This document shows, piece after piece, positions 14,435 to 61,557 of a stretch of 64,000 nucleotides of DNA; the first letter of the stretch is position 1; each line of letters opens with the position of its first letter. Source of the stretch: Stomorhina lunata (lineage: Eukaryota > Arthropoda > Insecta > Diptera > Rhiniidae); NCBI GenBank assembly GCA_933228675.1, contig OW121744.1, positions 96,767,008 through 96,831,007 on the forward strand. Reading direction: 5' to 3'. Made by a program: the position numbers and the translations under genes. The notes beneath the pieces are model-generated. The model was not told the DNA's origin. It was given only the letters and a program-made list of their open reading frames with translations, and did no database searches.

Positions 14435-15893
14435 TTCTATAGAATAATTTTTATTAGAAATATTTTTCTATAGAAAATTTTTCATTAGAAATATTTTTCT
14501 ATAGAAAAATTTTCATTAGAAATATTTTTCTATAGAAAAATTTTCATTAGAAATATTTTTCTATAGAAAAATTTTCATTAGAAATATTTTTCTATAGAAA
14601 AATTTTCATTAGAAATATTTTTCTATCGAAAAATATTTCTAACGAAAATATTTCTATAGGAAAATATTTCTTTTAAAAAATTTTCTATAGAAAAATATTT
14701 CTTTTGAAAATTTTTCTATAGAAAAATATTTCTTTTGAAAATTTTTCTATAGAAAAATATTTCTTCTGAAAATTTTTCTATAGAAAAATATTTCTAATGA
14801 AAATTTTTCTATAGAAAAATATTTCTAACGAAAATTTTTCTATAGAAAAATATTTCTAACGAAAATTTTTCTATAGAAAAATATTTCTAACGAAAATTTT
14901 TCTATAGAAAAATATTTCTAACGAAAATTTTTCTATAGAAAAATATTTCTAACGAAAATTTTTCTATAGAAAAATATTTCTAACGAAAATTTTTCTATAG
15001 AAAAATATTTCTAACGAAAATTTTTGTATAGAAAAATATTTCTAACGAAAATTTTTGTATAGAAAAATATTTCTAACGAAAATTTTTCTATAGAAAAATA
15101 TTTCTAACGAAAATTTTTCTATAGAAAAATATTTGTAACGAAAATTTTTCTATAGAAAAATATTTCTAACGAAAATTTTTCTATAGAAAAATATTTCTAA
15201 CGAAAATTTTTCTATAGAAAAATATTTCTAACGAAAATTTTTCTATAGAAAAATATTTCTAACGAAAATTTTTCTATAGAAAAATATTTCTAACGAAAAT
15301 TTTTCTATAGAAAAATATTTCTAACGAAAATTTTTCTATAGAAAAATTTTTCTATAGAAAAATATTTCTAACGAAAATATTTCTATAGAAAAATATTTCT
15401 AACGAAAATATTTCTATAGAAAAATATTTCTAACGAAAATTTTTCTATAGAAAAATATTTCTAACGAAAATTTTTCTATAGAAAAATATTTCTAACGAAA
15501 ATTTTTCTATAGAAAAATATTTCTAACGAAAATTTTTCTATAGAAAAATAATTCTAACGAAAATTTTTCTATAGAAAAATAATTCTAACGAAAATTTTTC
15601 TATAGAAAAATATTTCTAACGAAAATTTTTCTATAGAAAAATATTTCTAACGAAAATTTTTCTATAGAAAAATATTTCTAACGAAAATTTTTCTATAGAA
15701 AAATATTTCTAACGAAAATTTTTCTATAGAAAAATATTTCTAACGAAAATTTTTCTATAGAAAAATATTTCTAACGAAAATTTTTCTATAGAAAAATATT
15801 TCTAACGAAAATTTTTCTATAGAAAAATATTTCTAACGAAAATTTTTCTATAGAAAAATATTTCTAACGAAAATTTTTCTATAGAAAAATATT
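14435..15893 (+). repeat. 31-bp CTAACG satellite (family B), left block
   Basis: Units of 31 bp with core TTTTTCTATAGAAAAATATT and linker CTAACGAAAA. The first ten or so units carry a different linker (CATTAGAAATA), then TTTTGAAAA units, then the uniform CTAACG type. The block is cut at about 15894 by the ribozyme-bearing element and resumes at 20291. Confidence 0.95.
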
Positions 15894-15980
15894 TCTGAAA
15901 GAAATTAATTTTTAGTTGAACCAGAAATTTATGTTGATGGTCGTGGGTTCGAGTCGGGCTCAGGTTCATGTCATAAATTA

Positions 15981-16696: not shown

Positions 16697-18409
16697 TCAG
16701 TTTAACTTATGAAATCTTTTTTTTTGATCTAGTAAAGATCTTGACCCAGACCGTCTTTTATGACGAACATTTAGCTCATCTCGTTGAAGACACCAGCAAT
16801 AGTCCGCTAACATTGTTGGAGACCATTTACCCTGATAACGTCTTTCCATTTCTTTGAGGTCCTGATGAGATCGCTCACCTTGCTCTTCGCTGACGGCACC
16901 TAGATTTTCTGGAAACCATTCTAAATGAGAGTGTAAATAATGCAATTTTACGCTCATATTGCAACCTAAATTCTGAAATTTTTTAATCATATCGTCAACT
17001 ATTTCTTTGTAATCACTAACTTTATTATTACCCAAAAATCCTTTAACAACTTTTTTAAAGCTAATCCAGGCTTCTTTTTCTACATTTGTCATAACCTGTT
17101 CAACCTCTGTTGTTTTCATTAATTCTCTTATTTGTGGTCCAACAAATATTCCTTCTTTTATCTTCGCCTCACTTAAATAAGGGAATTTATCTCTAAGATA
17201 TTGAAATAATGCACCATCGGTATCAAGAGCCTTTACAAATTGCTTCATTAATCCTAATTTTATATGAAGCGGAGGCAACAAAACTTTTTTAGAGTCAATT
17301 AACGGTTGTTGAATAATGTTGGGATCTCCAGGTTTTAAAGTTTTACGAAGAGGCCAATCCTTTGTAACGTAATGCTTAACTCTATCTCTGCTATCCCACA
17401 AACATATAAAGCACGGATATTTTGTATAACCCAATTGTTGTCCAAGCAGCATTGAAACCATTTTTAAGTCTCCGCATACTTCCCATTTATGCTGTTCATA
17501 TTTTATTGCTTTAAGAATAGTTTCTACATTTTCATATGATTCCTTTAGGTGTACAGAATGAGCAATAGGTATTGACGCATATTTATTTGAGTTATGCAAT
17601 AAAACTGCTTTCAAACTTGTTTTTGAGGAATCAATAAACAATCTCCATTGATCAGTATCATAAGGAAGTTCTAATTTTTCAATTAAGCCTTTAACATCAT
17701 TACAAAAAACATATTCATCACATGCAGAATAATACTCAACTAATTCCTTCTCTCGATTACGATACCAACTAAAAGTAGTTCTTGGAGCAAGAAGGTGTTT
17801 CTCTTGAAGTCTTGATCCTAACAACTCAGATTTTTCTTTCGACAAGCCTAAATCTCTGACTAAATCATTTAAAGAAGCCTGATCAAATAAAATAGGAGCA
17901 TCAGAGGTTGATTCGATGTCTTCAAAATCCTGATTTTCAATATCGTCACAGACTGTATGGTCTTCAGCATTTATTCTTACAAATGGAGGGCTTGGAGGAA
18001 CATCACCAGATGCAAAAGGAATAGGCTTCGTTACGCTTGCTACATTCGGATATTTTATATTACAAGCATTTTTAATATTATATCCAAATGTTTTGGTTAA
18101 ACAGAAATAACATTCATTGTGGCTAACAGGTTCACACCAAATTGCAGGAGTTTTGAAAGGCATTGGTGTTACTTCTTTATGGGCATTATACCAACGTCTT
18201 AATGTTTCAACACATGATTTACAAGCCGTATGTGGAACCCAAGACTTATCCTGATTACTTATCGAAATATTGAAGTAATTAAGATAAAATATTTTTATCG
18301 TTTCATTGATTTTCATCGCATTTTTTGTGAACACGAAGCGACTACAAATGTAGCAAAAGCTGTCAGGATTATTTAAACACTTACGCGAGGTCATTATTGA
18401 AATGATCAA
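16697..18409 (-). CDS. Transposase-like protein, 570 aa, intact
   Basis: A widespread animal family usually annotated as uncharacterised. Its place inside inverted repeats marks it as a transposase. Visible parts: a Cys-rich N-terminal region (C19-x2-C22, C63-x2-C66, C100-x2-C103), likely zinc-binding; an acidic linker at about 145-175; then an RNase H-like core. Candidate acidic residues are D260 in RLFIDSSKTSLKAVLLHN and D314 in CGDLK; C333-x2-C336 is inserted after the second. H490-x4-H495 precedes SEEQGERSHQD with E508/E509/E512 as third-acid candidates. C-x2-C and H-x4-H motifs around the core occur in some eukaryotic cut-and-paste transposases. The C-terminus is basic. Met6 (18394) is an equally likely start. 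No stop or frameshift interrupts it. Catalytic assignments are inference. Confidence 0.85.
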   Translation of the reverse strand: MIISIMTSRKCLNNPDSFCYICSRFVFTKNAMKINETIKIFYLNYFNISISNQDKSWVPHTACKSCVETLRRWYNAHKEVTPMPFKTPAIWCEPVSHNECYFCLTKTFGYNIKNACNIKYPNVASVTKPIPFASGDVPPSPPFVRINAEDHTVCDDIENQDFEDIESTSDAPILFDQASLNDLVRDLGLSKEKSELLGSRLQEKHLLAPRTTFSWYRNREKELVEYYSACDEYVFCNDVKGLIEKLELPYDTDQWRLFIDSSKTSLKAVLLHNSNKYASIPIAHSVHLKESYENVETILKAIKYEQHKWEVCGDLKMVSMLLGQQLGYTKYPCFICLWDSRDRVKHYVTKDWPLRKTLKPGDPNIIQQPLIDSKKVLLPPLHIKLGLMKQFVKALDTDGALFQYLRDKFPYLSEAKIKEGIFVGPQIRELMKTTEVEQVMTNVEKEAWISFKKVVKGFLGNNKVSDYKEIVDDMIKKFQNLGCNMSVKLHYLHSHLEWFPENLGAVSEEQGERSHQDLKEMERRYQGKWSPTMLADYCWCLQRDELNVRHKRRSGSRSLLDQKKRFHKLN

Positions 18410-19208: not shown

Positions 19209-19317
19209 TTATTTTTTTTTTAATTTATGATTTTTAAATTAGATGAATAAATTTTAGGAATACTGAAAAAACTATGTGACACTTAGCAGTGTGGAATGCT
19301 GCATTTTCTGTCTTCAT

Positions 19318-19884
19318 TCTTTGTCTTCATTACCAGCTGACAGTTGGTTAAAGTACAAAGTAAATGTAGATTAATAAAGGATAGGGATACAAAACATAAA
19401 GGAAAAAACTATGGTGGATAAGTTCGTCTAACTGAATCGATCATATGGTCATAGGTGAAATAGAAATGAGTGTTAACATAATTCTCGTTTTCAATTTCGC
19501 TTAAGAATTCAGTTAAATAGATGATCTTAACTACTGGCATCTAACAGTTGGTGACACAGTGTGCTGATGAAGTCCGTAGCGGGACAGAAAATGCAGCATT
19601 CCACACTGCTAAGTGTCACATAGTTTTTTCAGTATTCCTAAAATTTATTCATCTAATTTAAAAATCATAAATTAAAAAAAAAATAATTTATGACATGAAC
19701 CTGAGCCCGACTCGAACCCACGACCATCAACATAAATTTCTGGTTCAACTAAAAATTAATTTCTTTCAATTAAATTGCATGGGCACCGCGATTTACATGT
19801 TTTCATTAACTCTTTCAAGTTGATACTAAATTCAAAATTTGCATTAACGTAAAAGAATAAAACAAAACTTGTCAAAAACAAAAA
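19318..19884 (+). repeat. 567-bp ribozyme repeat, full unit
   Basis: A complete unit of a 567-bp tandem repeat; the next unit starts at 19885 with the same TCTTTGTCTTCATTACC. It carries a predicted hammerhead ribozyme at 19551-19619, then an A-rich tract. The complement of GGTTCGAGTCG follows at 19710-19720. No coding region was seen. A non-coding tandem unit with a hammerhead resembles animal retrozymes or ribozyme satellites. A Penelope-type terminal repeat is an alternative. Confidence 0.8.
19551..19619 (+). ncRNA. Predicted type I hammerhead ribozyme, copy 1
   Basis: The core CTGATGA (19564-19570) and GAAA (19587-19590) are both present. Stem I: 19551-19556 pairs with 19614-19619 (6 bp) and 19557-19563 with 19602-19608 (7 bp), with a 5-nt CTAAG bulge on the 3' strand. 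Stem II: GTCC (19572-19575) pairs with GGAC (19582-19585), with an A-A mismatch next to the core. Stem III: AATG pairs with CATT around a CAG triloop. The cleavage triplet is TTC, predicting cleavage after C19601. Short stem III and bulged stem I are usual for animal type I hammerheads. The A-A mismatch at 10.1/11.1 is atypical and could lower activity. Confidence 0.82.
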
Positions 19885-20290
19885 TCTTTGTCTTCATTAC
19901 CAGCTGACAGTTGGTTAAAGTACAAAGTAAATGTAGATTAATAAAGGATAGGGATACAAAACATAAAGGAAAAAACTATGGTGGATAAGTTCGTCTAACT
20001 GAATCGATCATATGGTCATAGGTGAAATAGAAATGAGTGTTAACATAATTCTCGTTTTCAATTTCGCTTAAGAATTCAGTTAAATAGATGATCTTAACTA
20101 CTGGCATCTAACAGTTGGTGACACAGTGTGCTGATGAAGTCCGTAGCGGGACAGAAAATGCAGCATTCCACACTGCTAAGTGTCACATAGTTTTTTCAGT
20201 ATTCCTAAAATTTATTCATCTAATTTAAAAATCATAAATTAAAAAAAAAATAATTTATGACATGAACCTGAGCCCGACTCGAACCCACGA
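19885..20290 (+). repeat. 567-bp ribozyme repeat, truncated second unit
   Basis: About 406 bp matching 19318-19723 almost exactly. It ends abruptly at CGAACCCACGA, where family B satellite resumes. The high identity to unit 1 suggests a recent tandem duplication or insertion as a dimer. Confidence 0.85.
20118..20186 (+). ncRNA. Predicted type I hammerhead ribozyme, copy 2
   Basis: All core and stem positions are as in copy 1, offset by exactly 567 bp: CTGATGA at 20131-20137 and predicted cleavage after C20168. Cleavage at both copies would release a 567-nt RNA. Confidence 0.82.
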
Positions 20291-23200
20291 AAAATATTTC
20301 TAACGAAAATTTTTCTATAGAAAAATATTTCTAACGAAAATTTTTCTATAGAAAAATATTTCTAACGAAAATTTTTCTATAGAAAAATATTTCTAACGAA
20401 AATTTTTCTATAGAAAAATATTTCTAACGAAAATTTTTCTATAGAAAAATATTTCTAACGAAAATTTTTCTATAGAAAAATATTTCTAACGAAAATTTTT
20501 CTATAGAAAAATATTTCTAACGAAAATTTTTCTATAGAAAAATATTTCTAACGAAAATTTTTCTATAGAAAAATATTTCTAACGAAAATTTTTCTATAGA
20601 AAAATATTTCTAACGAAAATTTTTCTATAGAAAAATATTTCTAACGAAAATTTTTCTGTAGAAAAATATTTCTAACGAAAATTTTTCTATAGAAAAATAT
20701 TTCTAACGAAAATTTTTCTATAGAAAAATATTTCTAACGAAAATTTTTCTATAGAAAAATATTTCTAACGAAAATTTTTCTATAGAAAAATATTTCTAAC
20801 GAAAATTTTTCTATAGAAAAATATTTCTAACGAAAATTTTTCTATAGAAAAATATTTCTAACGAAAATTTTTCTATAGAAAAATATTTCTAACGAAAATT
20901 TTTCTATAGAAAAATATTTCTAACGAAAATTTTTCTATAGAAAAATATTTCTAACGAAAATTTTTCTATAGAAAAATATTTCTAACGAAAATTTTTCTAT
21001 AGAAAAATATTTCTAACGAAAATTTTTCTATAGAAAAATATTTCTAACGAAAATTTTTCTATAGAAAAATATTTCTAACGAAAATTTTTCTATAGAAAAA
21101 TATTTCTAACGAAAATTTTTCTATAGAAAAATATTTCTAACGAAAATTTTTCTATAGAAAAATATTTCTAACGAAAATTTTTCTATAGAAAAATATTTCT
21201 AACGAAAATTTTTCTATAGAAAAATATTTCTAACGAAAATTTTTCTATAGAAAAATATTTCTAACGAAAATTTTTCTATAGAAAAATATTTCTAACGAAA
21301 ATTTTTCTATAGAAAAATATTTCTAACGAAAATTTTTCTATAGAAAAATATTTCTAACGAAAATTTTTCTATAGAAAAATATTTCTAACGAAAATTTTTC
21401 TATAGAAAAATATTTCTAACGAAAATTTTTCTATAGAAAAATATTTCTAACGAAAATTTTTCTATAGAAAAATATTTCTAACGAAAATTTTTCTATAGAA
21501 AAATATTTCTAACGAAAATTTTTGTATAGAAAAATATTTCTAACGAAAATTTTTCTATAGAAAAATATTTCTAACGAAAATTTTTCTATAGAAAAATATT
21601 TCTAACGAAAATTTTTCTATAGAAAAATATTTCTAACGAAAATTTTTCCATAGAAAAATATTTCTAACGAAAATTTTTCTATAGAAAAATATTTCTAACG
21701 AAAATTTTTCTATAGAAATATTTCTAACGAAAATTTTTCTATAGAAAAATATTTCTAACTAAAATTTTTCTATAGAAAAATATTTCTAACGAAAATTTTT
21801 CTATAGAAAAATATTTCTAACGAAAATTTTTCTATAGAAAAATATTTCTAACGAAACTTTTTCTATAGAAAAATATTTCTAACGAAACTTTTTCTATAGA
21901 AAAATATTTCTAACGAAACTTTTTCTATAGAAAAATATTTCTAACGAAACTTTTTCTATAGAAAAATATTTCTAACGAAAATTTTTCTATAGAAAAATAT
22001 TTCTAACGAAAATTTTTCTATAGAAAAATATTTCTAACGAAAATTTTTCTATAGAAAAATATTTCTAACGAAAATTTTTCTATAGAAAAATATTTCTAAC
22101 GAAAATTTTTTTATAGAAAAATATTTCTAACGAAAATTTTTCTATAGAAAAATATTTCTAACGAAAATTTTTCTATAGAAAAATATTTCTAACGAAAATT
22201 TTTCTATAGAAAAATATTTCTAACGAAAATTTTTCTATAGCAAAATATTTCTAACGAAAATTTTTCTATAGAAAAATATTTCTAACGAAAATTTTTCTAT
22301 AGAAAAATATTTCTAACGAAAATTTTTCTATAGAAAAATATTTCTAACGAAAATTTTTATATAGAAAAATATTTCTAACGAAAATTTTTCTATAGAAAAA
22401 TATTTCTAACGAAAATTTTTCTATAGAAAAATATTTCTAACGAAAATTTTTCTATAGAAAAATATTTCTAACGAAAATTTTTCTATAGAAAAATATTTCT
22501 AACGAAAATTTTTCTATAGAAAAATATTTCTAACGAAAATTTTTCTATAGAAAAATATTTCTAACGAAAATTTTTCTATAGAAAAATATTTCTAACGAAA
22601 ATTTTTCTATAGAAAAATATTTCTAACGAAAATTTTTCTATAGAAAAATATTTCTAACGAAAATTTTTCTATAGAAAAATATTTCTAACGAACATTTTTC
22701 TATAGAAAAATATTTCTAACGAAAATTTTTCTATAGAAAAATATTTCTAACGAAAATTTTTCTATAGAAAAATATTTCTAACGAAAATTTTTCTATAGAA
22801 AAATATTTCTAACGAAAATTTTTCTATAGAAAAATATTTCTAACGAAAATTTTTCTATAGAAAAATATTTCTAACGAAAATTTTTCTATAGAAAAATATT
22901 TCTAACGAAAATTTTTCTATAGAAAAATATTTCTAACGAAAATTTTTCTATAGAAAAATATTTCTAACGAAAATTTTTCTATAGAAAAATATTTCTAACG
23001 AAAATTTTTCTATAGAAAAATATTTCTAACGAAAATTTTTCTATAGAAAAATATTTCTAACGAAAATTTTTCTATAGAAAAATATTTCTAACGAAAATTT
23101 TTCTATAGAAAAATATTTCTAACGAAAATTTTTCTATAGAAAAATATTTCTAACGAAAATTTTTCTATAGAAAAATATTTCTAACGAAAATTTTTCTATA

Positions 23201-23757
23201 GAAAAATATTTCTAACGAAAATTTTTCTATAGAAAAATATTTCTAACGAAAATTTTTCTATAGAAAAATAACGAAAATTTTTCTGTAGAAAAGTATTTCT
23301 TTTGAAAATTTTTCTATAGAAAAATATTTCTTTTGAAAATTTTTCTATAGAAAAATATTTCTTTTGAATATTTTTTTTATAGAAAAATATTCTTTTTTGA
23401 AAATTTTTCTATAGAAAAATATTTCTTTTGAAAATTTGTCTATAGAAAAATAATATCGAAAATTTTTCTATAGAATAATATTTCTATCGAAAATTTTACT
23501 ATAGAAAATTATTTCTAACGAAAATTTTTCTATAGAAAAATATTTCTAACAAAAATGTTTCTATAGAAAAATATTTCCTTTGAAAATTTTTCCATAGAAA
23601 ATATTTCTTTTAAAAATTTTTCTATAGAAAAATATTTCTTTTGAAAATTTTTCTATAGAAAAATATTTCTATCGAAAATTTTTCTTTAGAAAAATATTTC
23701 TATCGAAAATTTTTCTATATAGAAAGACATTGCTGTCGAAAATCTTTCTATAGAACA
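20291..23757 (+). repeat. 31-bp CTAACG satellite (family B), right block
   Basis: About 110 units, extremely uniform from 20291 to 23270, with scattered single-base variants and one short cluster of four units carrying CGAAACTTTTTC (near 21855-21960). The last 480 bp degrade into TTTTGAAAA and TATCGAAAA linkers, mirroring the linker types at the left edge of the left block. Confidence 0.96.
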
Positions 23758-25189: not shown

Positions 25190-28100
25190 TATATATAAAT
25201 TTTCTATAGAAAATTTTTCGAAAAAAAAATTTTCTATAGAAAATTTTTCGTTAAAAAAAATTTCTATAGAAAATTTTTCGTTAAAAAAAATTTTCTATAG
25301 AAAATATTTCGTTAAAAAAAATTTTCTATAGAAAATTTTTCGTTAAAAAAAATTTTCTATAGAAAATTTTTCGATAAAAAAATTTTCTCTAGAAAATTTT
25401 TCGATAAAAAAATTTCTCTATAGAAAATTTTTCGGTAAAAAAATTTCTCTATAGAAAATTTTTCGGTAAAAAAATTTCTCTATAGAAAATTTTTCGGTAA
25501 AAAAATTTCTCTATAGAAAATTTTTCGGTAAAAAAAATTTTCTATAGAAAATTTTTCGTTAAAAAAATTTTTTATAAAAAATTTTTCGTTAAAAAAATTT
25601 CTCTATAGAAAATTTTTCGTTAAAAAAAATTTTCTATAGAAAATTTTTCGTTAAAAAAAATTTTCTATAGAAAATTTTTCGTTAAAAAAAAATTTTCCAT
25701 AGAAAATTTTTCGTTAAAAAAAAATTTTCTATAGAAAATTTTTCGTTAAAAAAATTTTCTGTTGAAAATTTTTCGTAAAAAAAAATTTCTATAGAAAATC
25801 TTTAGTTAAAAAAATTTTTCTATAGAAAATTTTTCGATAAAAAAATTTTTCTACAGAAAATTTTTCGATAAAAAAATTTGTCCATAGAAAATTTTTCGAT
25901 AAAAAAAATTTTCTATAGAAAATTTTTCGATAAAAAAATTTTCTCTAGAAAATTTTTCGATAAAAAAATTTCTCTATAGAAAATTTTTCGGTAAAAAAAA
26001 TTTTCTATAGAAAATTTTTCGTTAAAAAAATTTTTCTATAGAAAATTTTTCGTTAAAAAAATTTTTCTATAGAAAATTTTTCGTTAAAAAAATTTTTCTA
26101 CAGAAAATTTTTCGTTAAACAAATTTTCTATAGAAATTTTTTCGTTAAAAAAATTTTCTATAAAAAATTTTTCATTATAAAATAATTTTCTGTAGAAAAT
26201 TTTTCGTTAAAAAAATTTTCTATAGAAAATTTTTCGTTAAAAAAATTTTCTATAGAAAATTTTTCGTTAAAAAAATTTTCTATAGAAAATTTTTCGTTAA
26301 AAAAATTTTCTATAGAAAATTTTTCGTTAAAAAAATTTTCTATAGAAAATTTTTCGTTAAAAAAATTTTCTATAGAAAATTTTTCGTTAAAAAAATTTTC
26401 TATAGAAAATTTTTCGTTAAAAAAATTTTCTATAGAAAATTTTTCGTTAAAAAAATTTTCTATAGAAAATTTTTCGTTAAAAAAATTTTCTATAGAAAAT
26501 TTTTCGTTAAAAAATTTTCTATAGAAAATTTTTCGTTAAAAAATTTTCTATAGAAAATTTTTCGTTAAAAAAATTTTCTATAGAAAATTTTTCGTTAAAA
26601 AAATTTTCTATAGAAAATTTTTCGTTAAAAAAATTTTCTATAGAAAATTTTTCGTTAAAAAAATTTTCTATAGAAAATTTTTCGTTAAAAAAATTTTCTA
26701 TAGAAAATTTTTCGTTAAAAAAATTTTCTATAGAAAATTTTTCGTTAAAAAAATTTTCTATAGAAAATTTTTCGTTAAAAAAATTTTCTATAGAAAATTT
26801 TTCATTAAAAAATAATTTTCTGTAGAAAATTTTTCGTTAAAAAAATTTTCTATAGAAAATTTTTCGTTAAAATAATTTTCTATAGAAAATTTTTCGTTAA
26901 AAAAAATTTTCTATAGAAAATTTTTCGTTAAAAAAATTTTCTAAGAAAATTTTTCGTTAAAAAAATTTTCTATAGAAAATTTTTCGTTAAAAAAATTTTC
27001 TATAGAAAATTTTTCGTTAAAAAAATTTTCTATAGAAAATTTTTCGTTAAAAAAATTTTCTATAGAAAATTTTTCGTTAAAAAAATTTTCTATAGAAAAT
27101 TTTTCGTTAAAAAAATTTTCTATAGAAAATTTTTCGTTAAAAAAATTTTCTATAGAAAATTTTTCGTTAAAAAAATTTTCTATAGAAAATTTTTCGTTAA
27201 AAAAAAATTTTCTATAAAAAATTTTTCGTTAAAAAAAATTTTCTATAGAAAATTTTTCGTTAAAAAAAATATTTCTATAGAAAATTTTTCGCTAAAAAAA
27301 ATATTTCTATAGAAAATTTTTCGCTAAAAAAATTTTTCTACAGAAAATTTTTCGTTAAAAAAATTTTTCTATAGAAAATTGCTCGTTAAAATTTTTCAAT
27401 AGAAAATTTTTCGTTAACAAAATTTTTCTATAGAAAATTTTTCGTGAAAAAAATGTTCTATCGAAAATTTTTTGTTAAAATTTTTCTATAGAAAATTGTT
27501 TGTTAAAATTTTTCTATAGAAAATTTCTTGTTAAAATTTTTCTAAAAAAATTTTTCGTTAAAGCTTTTCTATGGAAAATTTTTCGTTAAAATTTTTTTAT
27601 ATAGAAAATATTTCGTTAAAAAGATTTTTCGATATAAAATTTTTCGTTAAAAAATAATTTTCTATAGAAATTTTTTCAAAAAAAAATTTTCTATAGAAAA
27701 TTTTTCAATAAAAAAATGTTTCTATAGAAAATTTTTCGTAAAACAATTTTTCTATAGAAAACTTTTTGTTAAAAAAATTTTTCTATAAAAAATTTTTCGT
27801 TAAAAAAATTTTTTTTTTAACGAAAAATTTTCTATAGAAAATTTTTCATAAAAAAATTTTTCTATAGAAAATTTTTCGTTAAAAAAATTTTTCTATAGAA
27901 AATTTTTCGTTAAAAAAAATTTTCTATAGAAAGTTTTTCGTTAAAAAAAATTTTCTATAGAAAGTTTTTCGTTAAAAAAATTTTTCTATAGAAAGTTTTT
28001 CGTTAAAAAAATTTTTCTATAGAAAATTTATCGTTAAAAAAATTTTTCGTTAAAAAAAATTTTTCTATAGAAAATTTTTCGGTAAAAATATTTTTCTAGA

Positions 28101-28372
28101 GAAAATTTTTCGTTAAAAAATTTTTCTAGATAAAATTTTTCATTAGAAAATTTTTCGATACAAAATTTTTTGTTACAAAAATTTTTGGATACAAAATTTT
28201 TCGTTAAAAAATGTTTCTATAGAAAATTTTTCGTTACAAAATTTTTCCATAGAAAATTTTTCGTTAAAAAATTTTTCGATAGAAAATTTTTCTATAAAAA
28301 AATTTTGCTACAGAAAATTTTTCTATAAAAAAATTATTCTGTAGAAAATTTTTCGTTAACAAAATTTTTCTA
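25190..28372 (-). repeat. 30-bp CGTTAAA satellite (family C)
   Basis: About 105 units, mostly with an exact 30-bp period, core TTTTCTATAGAAAATTTTTC and linker GTTAAAAAAA. Its reverse complement reads TTTAACGAAAA next to the core, so it is the family B unit on the opposite strand. It is homogeneous at 26220-27200 and degenerate on both sides, especially after 27370. Confidence 0.95.
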
Positions 28373-29312
28373 TTGTTTTATAGTCCCAGTCCTGAGAAAT
28401 TCTTAGCCCTATTAAAAATGTACGCACAGACTTAACACCTAATATTAAATTTTTAAAGCGCCTTATTGTAGGCAACATTTATTAGACTTCAAAATTCTCA
28501 AGAATTGTTAAGAGATTATTGAAAATTCCTTACAATTTTGTCCTTCAATGAAATATTTTCTACCAACTTATTAAAACTTCAAAGCTCTTGACAAAATTAA
28601 ATTCACTTCAAAAAATTAAATTCTCTCAGCTTTAAGAGCCACAAAGTATACAAAGAAAAGAATGTAATTTTCTATTATTAAGATGTTTCAATATATTTTA
28701 CCTTGATCTCATTTTGTATTGTTACTTAAATAACAAATCTACCATAATTTGTTAACTTCAAGTATTGATTTTAACTTGAAACCTACAGAAAAGTAGCATA
28801 AAGTAATGAGAACAAAATTCCTTGACATAAGTCTACTAAACAACGAAATAAAACTGTCTACGAGACAATTGTAACAATTCTATTTCTGAATTGAAGAAAA
28901 TAAGTAGAGAAAAACCCACACAAAAACCGTAAAATGAAAAAAAAAACAGGAGGAAATAAAACAAGAATTCATCACCAACGAAACGAGCAAGATGAAGAAG
29001 AAAAATGGCCAACGATTTTTCACCATAACACGAATACAATAAAAATGTATGTCAGAGACACAAACCCATAGTCGAACTCAAAACAAAAAGAAGCTTGAGT
29101 TCTTGCAAAAATATTGTATGTACTAATGTATGTAGAGCGGACATAACGGAAACGGATGTAAAACATTCATAGAGTAACAACTAACACTCACTCGTTCACT
29201 TACATACATAAATACTTGGAAATAATGGAAACTGTTACACTTGCACGCAATAATCGAGTGAGGGATTGTTTGACACACTGAAAAACAAATAGGGAAAACT
29301 GTAACAAATACA
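28373..29312. other. Intergenic, no gene seen
   Basis: AT-rich unique sequence. Two small minus-strand frames (28836-29039, 29123-29323) have hydrophobic or Ser-rich composition with no recognisable domain and are not called. Confidence 0.5.
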
Positions 29313-31615: not shown

Positions 31616-32231
31616 TTTATTTTACATTTACTCTTCATACCCCTAAATTTGCAAACCCCTTTTTGAGAATCCCCCTAATAAAAAGCTCTACTATATTACA
31701 ATATTCTAACTTTTATGTTTTGGACTTTAGAGTAATATATGAAAAGACAGCCAGTGGAGATTTATCACAATGAAATACAAAACAAATGCCTTTTGTTACA
31801 AATGATAAATTACACACTCACGAAAACAACAGCAAAACAAACTACATCTACAATAAACAACAAAATAAGGATATATTACAACTAAAAATATGTTATACGA
31901 AAAAATATAAAAATGTAGAAAAATTTGGGGGAAGAGCTTTAATATATAAGTTAAAGATAAAGATTTTAAGGCCTAAAATCGTCAGCTTTAACTTGGCAAT
32001 ACAATGTCAAATTTTTAAAATTATCTTATACATGAGCAAAAAAATTTGACCCATTTACTAAGATCGGATTAAAAACCCACAAACATTTCATTATTTGCTT
32101 TCAAAAGTGAGCCATGTACTAAGTGCAATCAAGTCTTTAATTTTAAATCACCTAGACCGGATATAATAGCAGCTGGTGAACCAGAGTGTCTAGATCGCTA
32201 AAGAAATTAGAACCTGAAAAAAACTTCGATT
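31616..32231. other. Intergenic, no gene seen
   Basis: AT-rich sequence. The frame at 31786-32049 (87 codons, Lys/Asn/Tyr-rich) has no recognisable domain. Confidence 0.5.
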
Positions 32232-34917
32232 GCAATATTTTTCTATATAGAAAAATTTTCAATAGAAATATTTTTCTATATAGAAAAATTTTCGATAGAA
32301 ATATTTTTCTATATAGAAAAATTTTCGATAGAAATATTTTTCTATATAGAAAAATTTTCGATAGAAATATTTTTCTATATAGAAAAATTTTCGATAGAAA
32401 TATTTTTCTATATAGAAAAATTTTCGATAGAAATATTTTTCTATATAGAAAAATTTTCGATAGAAATATTTTTCTATATAGAAAAATTTTCGATAGAAAT
32501 ACTTTTCTATATAGAAAAATTTTCGATAGAAATATTTTTCTACATAGAAAAATTTTCGATAGAAATATTTTTCTATATAGAAAAATTTTCGATAGAAATA
32601 TTTTTCTATATAGAAAAATTTTCGATAGAAATATTTTTCTATATAGAAAAATTTTCGATAGAAATATTTTTCTATATAGAAAAATTTTCGATAGAAATAT
32701 TTTTTTATATAGAAAAATTTTCGATAGAAATATTTTTCTATATAGAAAAATTTTCGATAGAAATATTTTTCTATATAGAAAAATTTTCGATAGAAATATT
32801 TTTCTATATAGAAAAATTTTCGATAGAAATATTTTTCTATATAGAAAAATTTTCGAAAGAAATATTTTTCTATATAGAAAAATTTTCGATAGAAATATTT
32901 TTCTATATAGAAAAATTTTCGAAAGAAATATTTTTCTATATAGAAAAATTTTCGATAGAAATATTTTTCTATATAGAAAAATTTTCGATAGAAATATTTT
33001 TCTATATAGAAAAATTTTCGATAGAAATATTTTTCTATATAGAAAAATTTTCGATAGAAATATTTTTCTATATAGAAAAATTTTCGATAGAAATATTTTT
33101 CTATATAGAAAAATTTTCGATAGAAATATTTTTCTATATAGAAAAATTTTCGATAGAAATATTTTTCTATATAGAAAAATTTTCGATAGAAATATTTTTC
33201 TATATAGAAAAATTTTCGATAGAAATATTTTTCTATATAGAAAAATTTTCGATAGAAATATTTTTCTATATAGAAAAATTTTCGATAGAAATATTTTTCT
33301 ATATAGAAAAATTTTCGATAGAAATATTTTTCTATATAGAAAAATTTTCGATAGAAATATTTTTCTATATAGAAAAATTTTCGATAGAAATATTTTTCTA
33401 TATAGAAAAATTTTCGATAGAAATATTTTTCTATATAGAAAAATTTTCGATAGAAATATTTTTCTATATAGAAAAATTTTCGATAGAAATATTTTTCTAT
33501 ATAGAAAAATTTTCGATAGAAATATTTTTCTATATAGAAAAATTTTCGATAGAAATATTTTTCTATATAGAAAAATTTTCGATAGAAATATTTTTCTATA
33601 TAGAAAAATTTTCGATAGAAATATTTTTCTATATAGAAAAATTTTCGATAGAAATATTTTTCTATATAGAAAAATTTTCGATAGAAATATTTTTCTATAT
33701 AGAAAAATTTTCGATAGAAATATTTTTCTATATAGAAAAATTTTCGATAGAAATATTTTTCTATATAGAAAAATTTTCGATAGAAATATTTTTCTATATA
33801 GAAAAATTTTCGATAGAAATATTTTTCTATATAGAAAAATTTTCGATAGAAATATTTTTCTATATAGAAAAATTTTCGATAGAAATATTTTTCTATATAG
33901 AAAAATTTTCGATAGAAATATTTTTCTATATAGAAAAATTTTCGATAGAAATATTTTTCTATATAGAAAAATTTTCGATAGAAATATTTTTCTATATAGA
34001 AAAATTTTCGATAGAAATATTTTTCTATATAGAAAAATTTTCGATAGAAATATTTTTCTATATAGAAAAATTTTCGATAGAAATATTTTTCTATATAGAA
34101 AAATTTTCGATAGAAATATTTTTCTATATAGAAAAATTTTCGATAGAAATATTTTTCTATATAGAAAAATTTTCGATAGAAATATTTTTCTATATAGAAA
34201 AATTTTCGATAGAAATATTTTTCTATATAGAAAAATTTTCGATAGAAATATTTTTCTATATAGAAAAATTTTCGATAGAAATATTTTTCTATATAGAAAA
34301 ATTTTCGATAGAAATATTTTTCTATATAGAAAAATTTTCGATAGAAATATTTTTCTATATAGAAAAATTTTCGATAGAAATATTTTTCTATATAGAAAAA
34401 TTTTCGATAGAAATATTTTTCTATATAGAAAAATTTTCGATAGAAATATTTTTCTATATAGAAAAATTTTCGATAGAAATATTTTTCTATATAGAAAAAT
34501 TTTCGATAGAAATATTTTTCTATGTAGAAAAATTTTCGATAGAAATATTTTTCTATATAGAAAAATTTTCGATAGAAATATTTTTCTATATAGAAAAATT
34601 TTCGATAGAAATATTTTTCTATATAGAAAAATTTTCGATAGAAATATTTTTCTATATAGAAAAATTTTCGATAGAAATATTTTTCTATATAGAAAAATTT
34701 TCGATAGAAATATTTTTCTATATAGAAAAATTTTCGATAGAAATATTTTTCTATATAGAAAAATTTTCGATAGAAATATTTTTCTATATAGAAAAATTTT
34801 CGATAGAAATATTTTTCTATATTATATATTTCTATCGAAAATTTTTCTATATAGAAAAATATTTCTATAGAAAATTTTTCTATATAGAAAAATTTTCGAT
34901 AGAAATGTTTTTCTATA
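32232..34917. repeat. 33-bp CGATAGAAATA satellite (family F), left block
   Basis: About 81 units of exactly 33 bp with core TTTTTCTATATAGAAAAA and linker TTTTCGATAGAAATA, very uniform. Since 33 is a multiple of three and the unit lacks stops in one frame on each strand, frames of about 894 and 902 codons stay open on both strands (an 11-residue repeat such as RNIFLYRKIFD). These are artefacts of the repeat. The last units, 34820-34905, include a local inversion. Confidence 0.97.
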
Positions 34918-35025
34918 TAATGGGTGTTTTTTTTAGAGGTATAGAACTTCGAATTGAAATAAAACACAAGAAAATCGTTTTAATGTCCATCAATTTGGCT
35001 TTATTGGAAGTATAATTTTATGACA

Positions 35026-46571: not shown

Positions 46572-46667
46572 ACTAAATATTAATCACTTAACAGCTGACA
46601 AAATGGCCGCCAGTTAAAAAACTGATGCCAACTTAAAGTTCTATACCTCAATAAAAAACACCCGATA

Positions 46668-47822
46668 GAAAAATTTTCGATAGAAATATTTTTCTATATA
46701 GAAAAATTTTCGATACAAATATTTTTCTATATAGAAAAATTTTCGATAGAAATATTTTTCTATATAGAAAAATTTTCGATAGAAATATTTTTCTATATAG
46801 AAAAATTTTCGATAGAAATATTTTTCTATATAGAAAAATTTTCGATAGAAATATTTTTCTATATAGAAAAATTTTCGATAGAAATATTTTTCTATATAGA
46901 AAAATTTTCGATAGAAATATTTTTCTATATAGAAAAATTTTCGATAGAAATATTTTTCTATATAGAAAAATTTTCGATAGAAATATTTTTCTATATAGAA
47001 AAATTTTCGATAGAAATATTTTTCTATATAGAAAAATTTTCGATAGAAATATTTTTCTATATAGAAAAATTTTCGATAGAAATATTTTTCTATATAGAAA
47101 AATTTTCGATAGAAATATTTTTCTATATAGAAAAATTTTCGATAGAAATATTTTTCTATATAGAAAAATTTTCGATAGAAATATTTTTCTATATAGAAAA
47201 ATTTTCGATAGAAATATTTTTCTATATAGAAAAATTTTCGATAGAAATATTTTTCTAAATAGAAAAATTTTCGATAGAAATATTTTTCTATATAGAAAAA
47301 TTTTCGATAGAAATATTTTTCTATATAGAAAAATTTTCGATAGAAATATTTTTCTATATAGAAAAATTTTCGATAGAAATATTTTTCTATATAGAAAAAT
47401 TTTCGATAGAAATATTTTTCTATATAGAAAAATTTTCGATAGAAATATTTTTCTATATAGAAAAATTTTCGATAGAAATATTTTTCTATATAGAAAAATT
47501 TTCGATAGAAATATTTTTCTATATAGAAAAATTTTCGATAGAAATATTTTTCTATATAGAAAAATTTTCGATAGAAATATTTTTCTATATAGAAAAATTT
47601 TCGATAGAAATATTTTTCTATATAGAAAAATTTTCGATAGAAATATTTTTCTATATAGAAAAATTTTCGATAGAAATACTTTTCTATATAGAAAAATTTT
47701 CGATAGAAATATTTTTCTATATAGAAAAATTTTCGATAGAAATATTTTTCTATATAGAAAAATTTTCGATAGAAATATTTTTCTATATAGAAAAATTTTC
47801 GATAGAAATATTTTTGTATAAA
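46668..47822. repeat. 33-bp CGATAGAAATA satellite (family F), right block
   Basis: About 35 units identical in type to 32232-34917, so one array of at least 3.8 kb was split by the mariner. A frame of about 408 codons on the minus strand is again only repeat translation. Confidence 0.97.
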
Positions 47823-52605: not shown

Positions 52606-55600
52606 CAGTCATAGTCTAGTCATAGTCTAGTCATAGTCTAGTCATAGTCTAGTCATAGTCTAGTCATAGTCTAGTCATAGTCTAGTCATAGTCTAGTCAT
52701 AGTCTAGTCATAGTCTAGTCATAGTCTAGTCATAGTCTAGTCATAGTCTAGTCATAGTCTAGTCATAGTCTAGTCATAGTCTAGTCATAGTCTAGTCATA
52801 GTCTAGTCATAGTCTAGTCATAGTCTAGTCATAGTCTAGTCATAGTCTAGTCATAGTCTAGTCATAGTCTAGTCATAGTCTAGTCATAGTCTAGTCATAG
52901 TCTAGTCATAGTCTAGTCATAGTCTAGTCATAGTCTAGTCATAGTCTAGTCATAGTCTAGTCATAGTCTAGTCATAGTCTAGTCATAGTCTAGTCATAGT
53001 CTAGTCATAGTCTAGTCATAGTCTAGTCATAGTCTAGTCATAGTCTAGTCATAGTCTAGTCATAGTCTAGTCATAGTCTAGTCATAGTCTAGTCATAGTC
53101 TAGTCATAGTCTAGTCATAGTCTAGTCATAGTCTAGTCATAGTCTAGTCATAGTCTAGTCATAGTCTAGTCATAGTCTAGTCATAGTCTAGTCATAGTCT
53201 AGTCATAGTCTAGTCATAGTCTAGTCATAGTCTAGTCATAGTCTAGTCATAGTCTAGTCATAGTCTAGTCATAGTCTAGTCATAGTCTAGTCATAGTCTA
53301 GTCATAGTCTAGTCATAGTCTAGTCATAGTCTAGTCATAGTCTAGTCATAGTCTAGTCATAGTCTAGTCATAGTCTAGTCATAGTCTAGTCATAGTCTAG
53401 TCATAGTCTAGTCATAGTCTAGTCATAGTCTAGTCATAGTCTAGTCATAGTCTAGTCATAGTCTAGTCATAGTCTAGTCATAGTCTAGTCATAGTCTAGT
53501 CATAGTCTAGTCATAGTCTAGTCATAGTCTAGTCATAGTCTAGTCATAGTCTAGTCATAGTCTAGTCATAGTCTAGTCATAGTCTAGTCATAGTCTAGTC
53601 ATAGTATAGTCATAGTCTAGTCATAGTCTAGTCATAGTCTAGTCATAGTCTAGTCATAGTCTAGTCATAGTCTAGTCATAGTCTAGTCATAGTCTAGTCA
53701 TAGTCTAGTCATAGTCTAGTCATAGTCTAGTCATAGTCTAGTCATAGTCTAGTCATAGTCTAGTCATAGTCTAGTCATAGTCTAGTCATAGTCTAGTCAT
53801 AGTCTAGTCATAGTCTAGTCATAGTCTAGTCATAGTCTAGTCATAGTCTAGTCATAGTCTAGTCATAGTCTAGTCATAGTCTAGTCATATTCTAGTCATA
53901 GTCTAGTCATAGTCTAGTCATAGTCTAGTCATAGTCTAGTCATAGTCTAGTCATATTCTAGTCATAGTCTAGTCATAGTCTAGTCATAGTCTAGTCATAG
54001 TCTAGTCATAGTCTAGTCATAGTCTAGTCATAGTCTAGTCATAGTCTAGTCATAGTCTAGTCATAGTCTAGTCATGGTCTAGTCATAGTCTAGTCATAGT
54101 CTAGTCATAGTCTAGTCATAGTCTAGTCATAGTCTAGTCATAGTCTAGTCATAGTCTAGTCATAGTCTAGTCATAGTCTAGTCATAGTCTAGTCATAGTC
54201 TAGTCATAGTCTAGTCATAGTCTAGTCATAGTCTAGTCATAGTCTAGTCATAGTCTAGTCATAGTCTAGTCATAGTCTAGTCATAGTCTAGTCATAGTCT
54301 AGTCATAGTCTAGTCATAGTCTAGTCATAGTCTAGTCATAGTCTAGTCATAGTCTAGTCATAGTCTAGTCATAGTCTAGTCATAGTCTAGTCATAGTCTA
54401 GTCATAGTCTAGTCATAGTCTAGTCATAGTCTAGTCATAGTCTAGTCATAGTCTAGTCATAGTCTAGTCATAGTCTAGTCATAGTCTAGTCATAGTCTAG
54501 TCATAGTCTAGTCATAGTCTAGTCATAGTCTAGTCATAGTCTAGTCATAGTCTAGTCATAGTCTAGTCATAGTCTAGTCATAGTCTAGTCATAGTCTAGT
54601 CATAGTCTAGTCATAGTCTAGTCATAGTCTAGTCATAGTCTAGTCATAGTCTAGTCATAGTCTAGTCATAGTCTAGTCATAGTCTAGTCATAGTCTAGTC
54701 ATAGTCTAGTCATAGTCTAGTCATAGTCTAGTCATAGTCTAGTCATAGTCTAGTCATAGTCTAGTCATAGTCTAGTCATAGTCTAGTCATAGTCTAGTCA
54801 TAGTCTAGTCATAGTCTAGTCATAGTCTAGTCATAGTCTAGTCATAGTCTAGTCATAGTCTAGTCATAGTCTAGTCATAGTCTAGTCATAGTCTAGTCAT
54901 AGTCTAGTCATAGTCTAGTCATAGTCTAGTCATAGTCTAGTCATAGTCTAGTCATAGTCTAGTCATAGTCTAGTCATAGTCTAGTCATAGTCTAGTCATA
55001 GTCTAGTCATAGTCTAGTCATAGTCTAGTCATAGTCTAGTCATAGTCTAGTCATAGTCTAGTCATAGTCTAGTCATAGTCTAGTCATAGTCTAGTCATAG
55101 TCTAGTCATAGTCTAGTCATAGTCTAGTCATAGTCTAGTCATAGTCTAGTCATAGTCTAGTCATAGTCTAGTCATAGTCTAGTCATAGTCTAGTCATATT
55201 CTAGTCATAGTCTAGTCATAGTCTAGTCATAGTCTAGTCATAGTCTAGTCATAGTCTAGTCATAGTCTAGTCATAGTCTAGTCATAGTCTAGTCATAGTC
55301 TAGTCATAGTCTAGTCATAGTCTAGTCATAGTCTAGTCATAGTCTAGTCATAGTCTAGTCATAGTCTAGTCATAGTCTAGTCATAGTCTAGTCATAGTCT
55401 AGTCATAGTCTAGTCATAGTCTAGTCATAGTCTAGTCATAGTCTAGTCATAGTCTAGTCATAGTCTAGTCATAGTCTAGTCATAGTCTAGTCATAGTCTA
55501 GTCATAGTCTAGTCATAGTCTAGTCATAGTCTAGTCATAGTCTAGTCATAGTCTAGTCATAGTCTAGTCATAGTCTAGTCATAGTCTAGTCATAGTCTAG

Positions 55601-56932
55601 TCATAGTCTAGTCATAGTCTAGTCATAGTCTAGTCATAGTCTAGTCATAGTCTAGTCATAGTCTAGTCATAGTCTAGTCATAGTCTAGTCATAGTCTAGT
55701 CATAGTCTAGTCATAGTCTAGTCATAGTCTAGTCATAGTCTAGTCATAGTCTAGTCATAGTCTAGTCATAGTCTAGTCATAGTCTAGTCATAGTCTAGTC
55801 ATAGTCTAGTCATAGTCTAGTCATAGTCTAGTCATAGTCTAGTCATAGTCTAGTCATAGTCTAGTCATAGTCTAGTCATAGTCTAGTCATAGTCTAGTCA
55901 TAGTCTAGTCATAGTCTAGTCATAGTCTAGTCATAGTCTAGTCATAGTCTAGTCATAGTCTAGTCATAGTCTAGTCATAGTCTAGTCATAGTCTAGTCAT
56001 AGTCTAGTCATAGTCTAGTCATAGTCTAGTCATAGTCTAGTCATAGTCTAGTCATAGTCTAGTCATAGTCTAGTCATAGTCTAGTCATAGTCTAGTCATA
56101 GTCTAGTCATAGTCTAGTCATAGTCTAGTCATAGTCTAGTCATAGTCTAGTCATAGTCTAGTCATAGTCTAGTCATAGTCTAGTCATAGTCTAGTCATAG
56201 TCTAGTCATAGTCTAGTCATAGTCTAGTCATAGTCTAGTCATAGTCTAGTCATAGTCTAGTCATAGTCTAGTCATAGTCTAGTCATAGTCTAGTCATAGT
56301 CTAGTCATAGTCTAGTCATAGTCTAGTCATAGTCTAGTCATAGTCTAGTCATAGTCTAGTCATAGTCTAGTCATAGTCTAGTCATAGTCTAGTCATAGTC
56401 TTGTCATAGTCTAGTCATAGTCTAGTCATAGTCTAGTCATAGTCTAGTCATAGTCTAGTCATAGTCTAGTCATAGTCTAGTCATAGTCTAGTCATAGTCT
56501 AGTCATAGTCTAGTCATAGTCTAGTCATAGTCTAGTCATAGTCTAGTCATAGTCTAGTCATAGTCTAGTCATAGTCTAGTCATAGTCTAGTCATAGTCTA
56601 GTCATAGTCTAGTCATAGTCTAGTCATAGTCTAGTCATAGTCTTGTCATAGTCTAGTCATAGTCTAGTCATAGTCTAGTCATAGTCTAGTCATAGTCTAG
56701 TCATAGTCTAGTCATAGTCTAGTCATAGTCTAGTCATAGTCTAGTCATAGTCTAGTCATAGTCTAGTCATAGTCTAGTCATAGTCTAGTCATAGTCTAGT
56801 CATAGTCTAGTCATAGTCTAGTCATAGTCTAGTCATAGTCTAGTCATAGTCTAGTCATAGTCTAGTCATAGTCTAGTCATAGTCTAGTCATAGTCTAGTC
56901 ATAGTCTAGTCATAGTCTAGTCATAGTCTAGT
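52606..56932. repeat. 11-bp satellite (CATAGTCTAGT)n
   Basis: About 393 units of 11 bp with almost no variation. Rare variants such as CATATTC (53889, 53953, 55197), CATGGTC (54074) and CTTGTC (56400, 56642) are visible. TAG occurs in every frame, so it is not translatable. The array is split at 56932 by the BEL/Pao element and resumes at 61196. Confidence 0.98.
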
Positions 56933-57595: not shown

Positions 57596-59044
57596 ATGAA
57601 TCAGGTAGATTTAGTTAAAGAACAGGAGAAGTTAGGTTATGAGGTAGTAGAATTATATAATAATTTAAATAAATTAGCCGAGCATGAGATTCCCAGCCAT
57701 GAATTTAAGAAAGCTGTTATGGAACTTAGGGCTAGATTTAATTACGTAAAAGAAAAATTTATAAAGAATGACTTAGGGCTCCATCCTCCTTCAGTTACTA
57801 TTGAAAATAGTTCATATTTCAAAACGAATTTTGTAGCTGAAATAAAGGAGGCTATACAAAATTTTGACATTGTGTATAGTCAATTGAAAAATAAATTAGT
57901 GATAGAGAAATTAGAAGTTGATCTTCAGCCAAAAGTTCAAAGTGGTCTTATGAGACAATTCCAATACGTTTTGAATGAATTGGAGGAAAAAATAAATAAA
58001 TTTAAGATGAGACAGGCTTCTATAGAAGTAGTTAGGGAAAAATATAAAGTAGCTGAAAATATATTTTTAGAATATTTGGGCCAGTTTCCTGACGACGAAC
58101 TTACGGAAGTGTTTTATTCTTTAAAAGATTTGTATTTAAACATTCCAGCCATAGAATATTATACTACAAATCTTCCGTATACATTACCAAAAATAGAAAT
58201 TCCTATATTTAGTGGAAGCTATACAGAGTGGAATACGTTTAGTGAGCTTTTCGAGCAACTAATTATTGACCAACCAATTTCTAATACACAAAAAATGTGT
58301 ATTCTAAAAGCTAAGTTAACTGGTGATGCACTTAAGTTGGTTGCAAAATTGCCAGTTAAAGCTGAAAACTTTGAATTAGCCTGGGATATTTTAAGAAAAT
58401 ATTATTCCAATAAAAGAGCCATTACGTCTATTTATTTTAAAAGCATTTTGGATGCACCACAAGTCTGTTTTAATTTAGAAAGCATAAAAACTTTTATGGA
58501 TGAGGTAAATGAGAGTTTACAGGCACTTGATGCTACAAAAATTAGCTCTGAAGAAATGCAACAAGCGTTTCTTTGCTTTGTTCTTCAAAGGAAGATGGAC
58601 GACAATTTAAGAGTCCAATTCGAACAGTATTTGGGAGGATCTAGGGAACTTCCGAAAGTACACAAATTAGTAGAGTTTTTAGAGCAAATGCACTATTCTT
58701 TAGAGGCAAGTCGACAGTTTATTAACCATGATGAGCAAATGGAATGTCGAAAAAAGATATCTCTAGAATCAGTTAAAAGCGCTCAGACAAAAAGAAACAG
58801 CAATTATAAATGCTTTTCAAATTGTGACCACAAAAATAATTTGTATAAGTGTTCTAACTTTAAAAGCCTCTCAATCAAAGAAAAATGGAAAAAAACGAAA
58901 GAACACGTTGTTTGCTATAAATGTTTAAATTCTGGTCATTTGTATAAGGAATGTTCTAGAAATATTAGATGCAAATTATGCAATAAGCAGCACAATACCT
59001 TATTGCATAAAGCAAAAGTTAAAAGTCCATTTAGCAAAAAATAA
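57596..59044 (+). CDS. BEL/Pao Gag polyprotein
   Basis: 482 residues. The N-terminal half is helical and Lys/Glu-rich. At about 195-215, LPKIEIPIFSGSYTEWNTF opens the conserved BEL/Pao gag domain (DUF1759-like), continuing with NTQKMCILKAKLTGDALKL. Near the C-terminus is a nucleocapsid zinc knuckle, C440-x2-C-x4-H-x4-C453, and a second Cys/His cluster at 459-471. Gag forms the particle and binds the RNA. The start ATG follows a long AT-rich leader. The frame ends at TAA (59042-59044), but the same frame carries the protease downstream. Confidence 0.9.
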   Translation: MNQVDLVKEQEKLGYEVVELYNNLNKLAEHEIPSHEFKKAVMELRARFNYVKEKFIKNDLGLHPPSVTIENSSYFKTNFVAEIKEAIQNFDIVYSQLKNKLVIEKLEVDLQPKVQSGLMRQFQYVLNELEEKINKFKMRQASIEVVREKYKVAENIFLEYLGQFPDDELTEVFYSLKDLYLNIPAIEYYTTNLPYTLPKIEIPIFSGSYTEWNTFSELFEQLIIDQPISNTQKMCILKAKLTGDALKLVAKLPVKAENFELAWDILRKYYSNKRAITSIYFKSILDAPQVCFNLESIKTFMDEVNESLQALDATKISSEEMQQAFLCFVLQRKMDDNLRVQFEQYLGGSRELPKVHKLVEFLEQMHYSLEASRQFINHDEQMECRKKISLESVKSAQTKRNSNYKCFSNCDHKNNLYKCSNFKSLSIKEKWKKTKEHVVCYKCLNSGHLYKECSRNIRCKLCNKQHNTLLHKAKVKSPFSKK

Positions 59045-61195: not shown

Positions 61196-61557
61196 CTAGT
61201 CATAGTCTAGTCATAGTCTAGTCATAGTCTAGTCATAGTCTAGTCATAGTCTAGTCATAGTCTAGTCATAGTCTAGTCATAGTCTAGTCATAGTCTAGTC
61301 ATAGTCTAGTCATAGTCTAGTCATAGTCTAGTCATAGTCTAGTCATAGTCTAGTCATAGTCTAGTCATAGTCTAGTCATAGTCTAGTCATAGTCTAGTCA
61401 TAGTCTAGTCATAGTCTAGTCATAGTCTAGTCATAGTCTAGTCATAGTCTAGTCATAGTCTAGTCATAGTCTAGTCATAGTCTAGTCATAGTCTAGTCAT
61501 AGTCTAGTCATAGTCTAGTCATAGTCTAGTCATAGTCTAGTCATAGTCTAGTCATAG
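61196..61557. repeat. 11-bp satellite, right block
   Basis: About 33 units of CATAGTCTAGT continuing the array at 52606-56932 after the BEL/Pao insertion, ending at 61557 in unique sequence. Confidence 0.97.

Follow-up and report, generated by a model that had tools for sequence, protein, structure and literature searches.

Animal retrozyme units have been reported at ~150-450 bp, with circles of 150 to over 1000 nt (PMC7229834), and Cervera & de la Pena 2020 (PMC7229834) named Penelope-like elements (PLEs) as strong candidates for mobilising the animal non-LTR retrozymes. As far as the accessible text of the two sources goes, PLEs as the retrozyme machinery are an expectation and not a result (PMC7229834, PMC7761336). 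In vitro, the purified Anolis PLE protein is reported to cut both strands of AT-rich DNA, to extend both, and to start inside the RNA at two sites, which correspond to the 30-40-bp tail (PMC11167929). Rotifer Penelope elements are described with head-to-head inverted pLTRs, a 31-bp tail, 8-10-bp duplications and ORFs of 830-842 aa (PMC3846280). The word Penelope does not occur in the accessible text of a Calliphora paper (PMC3630058). The mobiliser of animal retrozymes and the cause of head-to-head Penelope insertions are open questions in these papers.

Here, we analysed a 64,000-nt stretch of the genome of the fly Stomorhina lunata (contig OW121744.1, positions 96,767,008 to 96,831,007; from here on, the window). 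The window contains a head-to-head insertion in which a minus-strand left arm is followed by a plus-strand right arm (Table 1). The repeat at 19318-19723 recurs at an offset of +567 nt with 0 mismatches, so that the second copy ends at 20290, and 19209-19312 is a perfect 104-nt inverted repeat of 19583-19686 and 20150-20253. An earlier note on this DNA had described 19318..20290 as a tandem element. The tandem is real and corresponds to the right arm, while the start of the element is at 19209, and the inverted arm and the head-to-head architecture had been overlooked. The proposed 567-bp unit holds in the window, where the offset is mismatch-free; elsewhere, the unit measures 561-581 nt. We number the unit from the first position past the predicted cut, i.e., u1 is 19602. 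On this scale, the outer (3') end of the left arm lies within an A-run near u85, and the right arm has a 5' truncation at u284. ORFs of at least 150 aa overlapping 19209-20290 were not found.

Table 1. Features of the insertion and of its target in the window
Feature	Coordinates	Strand	Unit positions or basis
Left arm	19209..19312	-	u549-567 + u1-85, inverted; perfect 104-nt inverted repeat
Joint between head-to-head arms, 5 nt	19313..19317	.	Gap between arm borders
Right arm, 973 nt	19318..20290	+	u284-567, u1-567 (one full unit), u1-122
Predicted type I hammerhead, copy 1, cut after 19601	19551..19619	+	Descriptor scan; two-copy fold
Predicted type I hammerhead, copy 2, cut after 20168	20118..20186	+	Descriptor scan
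A-run ~u76-88, minor 3'-end site; left arm of the window stops here	19677..19689	+	
3'-end hot spot 1, u123-140, break after CCATCAA (u129/130)	19724..19741	+	15/47 arms end at u129-140
3'-end hot spot 2, u164-175, break after TTTCA/A (u168)	19765..19776	+	19/47 arms
31-bp AT-rich satellite array, target DNA outside the element	20291..23755	.	TRF array 20289-23755; junction

Both copies of the predicted hammerhead have CTGATGA (at 19564/20131), GAAA (at 19587/20154) and a TTC cut (at 19601/20168). Stem I comprises 6 + 7 bp around a 5-nt bulge, stem II has 4 bp and contains an A.A, and stem III has 4 bp. At the stem II position that is A.A here, hammerheads usually have G-C. Scanning the window with a full descriptor (three stems + core) gave 2 matches, and 100 dinucleotide shuffles gave 0, both strands included. 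These matches are exactly the two type I hammerheads, 567 nt apart and with cuts after 19601 and 20168, that had been proposed from the sequence, and the CTGATGA and GAAA cores, the 13-bp stem I with its 5-nt bulge and the 4-bp stem III read from the letters are likewise as proposed. By itself, the short word CTGANGA..GAAA is at chance level (5 found vs 4.98 expected). A covariance match, the lack of which the earlier note had listed as refuting its reading, was not obtained, as Rfam 15 gave no hammerhead in the window at the gathering score nor at E<=10. This negative result says little because Rfam also recognised none of four hammerhead-like stretches in PLEs of the same genome (L068, L070, L075, and L076, from three families), and its models may miss hammerheads of this kind. 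Exact copies of the 27-nt core were absent from a viral sequence collection.

Using the 38-nt core with <=3 mismatches as a query against the genome (728 Mb in 104 contigs), we found 1554 places (762 + 792), while the reversed control gave 0. The 100 matches listed are all exact, all on contig C1, and fall into 67 clusters by our own grouping. The first 35 of these clusters by position were fetched and, together with the window, make up the 36 loci analysed below; all fetched loci were selected by the exact core, and core conservation among them is therefore meaningless. Among the 100 matches listed, 17 same-strand spacings of 561-581 nt were present (562-566 nt in 11 of the 17); the genome thus holds further tandem copies, for which the earlier note had proposed a search. 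With its 1554 cores and no ORF of at least 150 aa, the element is also supported as a tandem, dispersed and non-coding type I hammerhead element in the manner of animal retrozymes. Copies within one array are nearly identical, and their variation is too small to show whether a circle or an uncut tandem served as the template. Again among the 100 matches listed, neighbours on opposite strands and within 3 kb are 15 in -/+ order and 1 in +/- order; the sole +/- pair (L055) is 936 nt apart and consists of two separate insertions.

The ends of the arms follow a distinct pattern. Of 47 core-bearing arms, 34 have their 3' ends in two 12-nt windows (15 at u129-140 and 19 at u164-175), where ~2 would be expected if ends were spread evenly over 567 positions. 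Another 8 end at u62-83 and 5 elsewhere (u2, u107, u122, u124, and u154), some of these u62-83 and stray ends lying further on (L033 and L049), as the aligner halts early in long A-runs and diverged tails. We infer that hot spots 1 and 2 are two internal reverse-transcription start sites, 39 nt apart, that would form a 'tail'. The 5' starts are scattered (46 arms, KS p = 0.08), and 16 of the 47 arms are longer than one unit, the longest having 2323 nt. Counting segments of >=50 nt with >=80% identity, abutting arm pairs are present in 17 of the 36 loci, all 17 in minus-left/plus-right order, and the other 19 loci are without an abutting pair; further arms at L055 (575 nt off) and L057 (213 nt off) were not counted as abutting. 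In all 17 pairs, the 5' starts of the two arms are unequal. For L031, L046, L051, L053 and the window, a BLAST start at u1 reflects that the alignment does not wrap round the unit, and these starts were re-read by eye as ~u559, ~u553, ~u564, ~u563 and ~u549 (19312), respectively. After re-reading, none of the five starts at the cut, and all are still unlike their partners. In a post hoc count, 5 of 34 paired-arm 5' starts lie within 20 nt upstream of the cut, against 1-2 expected. An enzyme stopping at the folded ribozyme could explain 5' starts just upstream of the cut.

A reverse-strand B-box-like word, GGGTTCGA(G/A)TC, lies at 19700-19725 and at the same place in L033, L035, L040, L045 and L047. 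It is kept in two subfamilies, the 3' parts of which differ by ~15%, and the part upstream of the hammerhead is 92-100% alike (five copies). In terms of sequence, this subfamily pattern suggests that 3' modules may have been exchanged.

The flanks of the arms point to a preferred target. The satellite word TTTCTATAGAAAA (<=1 mismatch) occurs in 30 of 47 3' flanks of 150 nt, a count that would if anything be lowered by early aligner stops, which leave element sequence in the flank. Its background is ~19%, based on 74 of 398 stretches taken >1.2 kb away within these loci and 182 of 973 stretches of the window. Duplication-like 12-nt words in non-satellite DNA were clear only at L037 and, by eye, at L053, most flanks being periodic satellite. 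In the window, AT-rich arrays of related, partly palindromic repeats of 30-33 bp are located at 319-1290, 14435-15913, 20289-23755, 25197-28373, 32218-34919 and 46665-47820. Such 30-33-bp AT-rich arrays are the apparent target of the element and of several PLE families.

Other features of the window are two nearly perfect 11-bp arrays, AGTCATAGTCT with 393 copies at 52607-56932 and CTAGTCATAGT with 33 copies at 61196-61557, and a 570-aa ORF on the minus strand (16697-18409) from a repetitive family that has named relatives in an ant and a frog. A gag-like ORF and, by eye, a protease-like ORF lie on the plus strand at 57596-59569. For the gag-like ORF, the top two matches come from Lucilia cuprina, which supports the fly origin inferred in the earlier note and makes a calyptrate fly likely. 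Lucilia gag relatives carry PF03564; we take the two ORFs to be part of what is probably a BEL/Pao-like element.

A Pfam GIY-YIG search gave two matches, one of which (L067, above the Pfam cut-off) led to PLEs of the same genome, its GIY-YIG domain appearing by eye to resemble a PLE endonuclease. With L067 as the query, 150 scored matches were obtained, some of them fragments of one copy, and open frames reach 864 aa. PLE endonuclease neighbours within 8 kb are arranged as 26 -/+, 14 --, 6 ++ and 0 +/-. We assigned the PLEs to families A-I (our own letters; L067-L079) and read one 3' flank per family. By eye, a hammerhead-like motif in families A, C, D, E and F is followed after ~80-120 nt by AT-rich satellite of the kind found beside the element, and the flanks of B, G, H and I do not run into AT-rich satellite. 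Single copies of E and F, which are near relatives in the 3' region, end 36 nt apart, again by eye. Families A, B, D, G and H have an intact CTGA(T/A)GA core, which is degenerate in the other four (C, E, F and I). The 3' region of the element gave no convincing alignment with the nine PLE families (at best, 31 of 500 shuffles were as good, in ten tries), and an autonomous PLE with the element's sequence was not found in the sampled PLE 5' and 3' regions of these families. Two small likenesses are leads only: an 11-mer common to the element and L069, and a resemblance by eye (GGTTCAACTA / GGTCAACTA) between the element and family E at the same place of the tail. At L080 (G000:C1:47212700-47218700), two cores are 5123 nt apart and both copies have identical borders. 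The pair is a possible duplication, but its flanks are alike only in part, with ungapped agreement at 176 of 282 letters upstream and at 68 of 220 letters downstream. As a candidate for the two ends of an autonomous element, this pair was rejected on account of the same borders in both copies and a longest open frame of 120 aa.

The predicted folds bear on how the ribozyme might work. As a 70-nt monomer, the RNA has a lowest-energy fold of -21.8 kcal/mol that is not a ribozyme, the ribozyme fold being at -18.8 kcal/mol with a stem III probability of 0. For two hammerhead copies, the lowest-energy fold is a double hammerhead with stem III formed between the copies from AAUGCAGCAUU. We count this match of the predicted two-copy fold with a double hammerhead as modest support, and under such a fold the tandem arrangement would serve a purpose. 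In energy, the gain of the dimer is ordinary (equalled in 226 of 300 shuffles), and following this control it was dropped as evidence. Among the 58 cores in the fetched loci, which were picked by the exact core, 46 are letter-identical over 76 nt. The other 12 include 3 with a truncated or shifted frame, and most of their stem changes break pairs. Compensatory changes, by which the earlier note would have judged the stems, gave a divided answer: L063, the only core changed on both sides of pairs, keeps one pair (G-C to A-U) and breaks another, and most single changes break pairs. Such mostly pair-breaking changes lend no support to the idea that stem pairing is under selection, with the caveat that the copies are young. 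Core conservation is no better than that of a control 38-mer (100/1554 vs 78/1156, as exact matches to C1:83.8 Mb over genome-wide matches with <=3 mismatches). Genome-wide, 1 copy has its 5' end at the predicted cut, vs 6 at a control position that lies six bases further along, 2 of which look like small deletions of u1-6. The insertions carry no direct sign of cleavage. The missing pile-up of 5' ends at the cut fits circles or uncut multimers as templates, and not linear monomers copied to their 5' end. On balance, the predicted ribozyme is somewhat more likely than not to cut in the fly, a judgement in which our confidence is slightly lowered by the stem changes, as these mostly break pairs.

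Could the family be a conventional satellite, expanded by unequal crossing-over, with a ribozyme-like motif by chance? Its tandem units, in or beside AT-rich satellite arrays, would suit such an origin; 1554 dispersed copies, clustered 3' ends with scattered 5' ends, the strict -/+ order of abutting arms and the complete lack of the full motif in the 100 shuffles do not, nor does the shortness of the arrays (<=4 cores per arm in the fetched set, and a run of six control words at C1:92.23 Mb), and we regard this origin as very improbable. A SINE-like element moved by a LINE is also improbable, if less so. It draws on u98-125, which when reverse-complemented resembles a tRNA T-arm/B box (GGTTCGANTC) and is present as a B-box-like word in both subfamilies, and on the 5' truncation and preferred 3' end, which suit LINE-type target-primed reverse transcription too. 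Of the Pol III A and B boxes that a tRNA-derived SINE has at its 5' end, only this B-box-like word was seen, on the strand opposite to the element and close to its 3' end. Against such an origin, ARAGORN finds 0 tRNA in the window, and the flanks inspected have no obvious poly-A or short-repeat tail. Moreover, the pair of main internal 3' ends separated by 39 nt, the tandem read-through and the head-to-head pairs at 17 of 36 loci fit PLEs better.

Two further alternatives concern the mechanism and the ribozyme rather than the nature of the family. In the model put forward for rotifers (PMC3846280), head-to-head structures arise by snap-back self-priming of one cDNA on an antisense template, and the observed head-to-head order is what this model predicts. 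It would also lead one to expect mirror arms at the joint. Instead, each of the 17 pairs has unequal 5' starts, most differences being in the tens to hundreds of nt (the smallest is 15, at L041), and in 16 of the 17 the two arms overlap or are separated by <=24 nt, the remaining pair having an alignment overlap of 53. We therefore see little prospect for snap-back here. More weight, though still on the unlikely side, goes to the possibility that the hammerhead is a dead relic, in which case uncut, PLE-bound RNA would be the spreading form and the motif would remain only through the youth of the copies. This would agree with 5' ends not accumulating at the cut, with a core without extra conservation, with mostly pair-breaking stem changes, with the poor monomer fold, and with the report that ribozyme mutants of the Anolis PLE left insertion in vitro unaffected and that the ribozyme needed protein (PMC11167929). 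Against a relic, 46 of the 58 cores, from loci chosen by the exact core, keep all core residues, the 13-bp stem I and the near-palindromic stem III by which a double hammerhead can form.

We consider it probable that the element is a ~563-567-nt non-coding retrozyme with a type I hammerhead RNA that is reverse-transcribed in trans by PLEs, since the family shows the published insertion marks of PLEs without a long ORF. The head-to-head architecture and the Penelope signature say more about the mechanism than the features singled out in the earlier note. In the mechanism that we propose, a tandem copy would be transcribed, and neighbouring hammerheads would pair via the near-palindromic stem III into a double hammerhead that cuts the RNA to unit length, perhaps aided by the PLE protein; host ligases may then circularise the unit-length RNA. 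Judging from the target preference, the PLE protein would open AT-rich DNA on both strands. Reverse transcription would begin inside the RNA, 129 or 168 nt past the cut, as seen in the 3'-end clusters, and synthesis would cross the cleavage junction in the 5' direction and in some cases continue over several units, as seen in arms of up to 2323 nt. Because synthesis passes the junction, the template would be a circle or an uncut multimer; circles in particular are close to an even proposition, on which we lean marginally to the negative. Often, both DNA ends would be extended and the cDNAs joined head-to-head, as seen in the order of the arms, with the unequal truncation points of paired arms pointing to two separate cDNAs. 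Only tentatively do we suggest that the family records the whole of an in vivo PLE reaction, from circular hammerhead RNA through rolling copying from a fixed internal start and use of both ends of one staggered break to the head-to-head joining of the cDNAs. If true, animal retrozymes would be tied to PLEs, and the long-noted inverted Penelope insertions would result from two-ended priming and not from snap-back. With >1000 short, young, non-coding copies, the questions of the mobiliser and of the head-to-head insertions come within reach of ordinary data.

In comparison with known systems, the element has in common with animal non-LTR retrozymes the non-coding tandem units, the type I hammerhead, the AT-richness and the high copy number (PMC7229834), and both are presumed to be non-autonomous (PMC7229834). 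Its unit of 561-581 nt is longer than the ~150-450 of animal retrozymes, which is a reported range and not a definition (PMC7229834), and the accessible text of that source does not describe animal retrozymes with two-armed head-to-head insertions or with a pair of fixed internal 3' ends (PMC7229834). Different from PLEs, the element is without an RT/GIY-YIG ORF, and beyond the hammerhead motif it has no convincing sequence similarity to the nine PLE families of the same genome. The open frames of these S. lunata PLEs, at up to 864 aa, are near the 830-842 aa reported for rotifer Penelope (PMC3846280). The hammerheads of PLE families G and H have CTGATGAAG in common with the element, and by eye stem III is palindromic in PLEs (ACGU or AUAU) as well as in the element. 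Compared to the minimal S. lunata PLE hammerheads, that of the element differs in its longer stem I and in a stem III that is also able to close within one molecule, and among ten two-copy folds only the element's is, by eye, plainly a double hammerhead. With the published Penelope/Poseidon PLEs, the element shares a hammerhead upstream of the 3' end and alternative ends 30-40 nt apart (PMC11167929), as well as an AT-rich target with both strands extended or head-to-head copies, tandem and partial-tandem copies, and duplication-like words at the borders, which in the element were seen at two loci (PMC11167929, PMC3846280).
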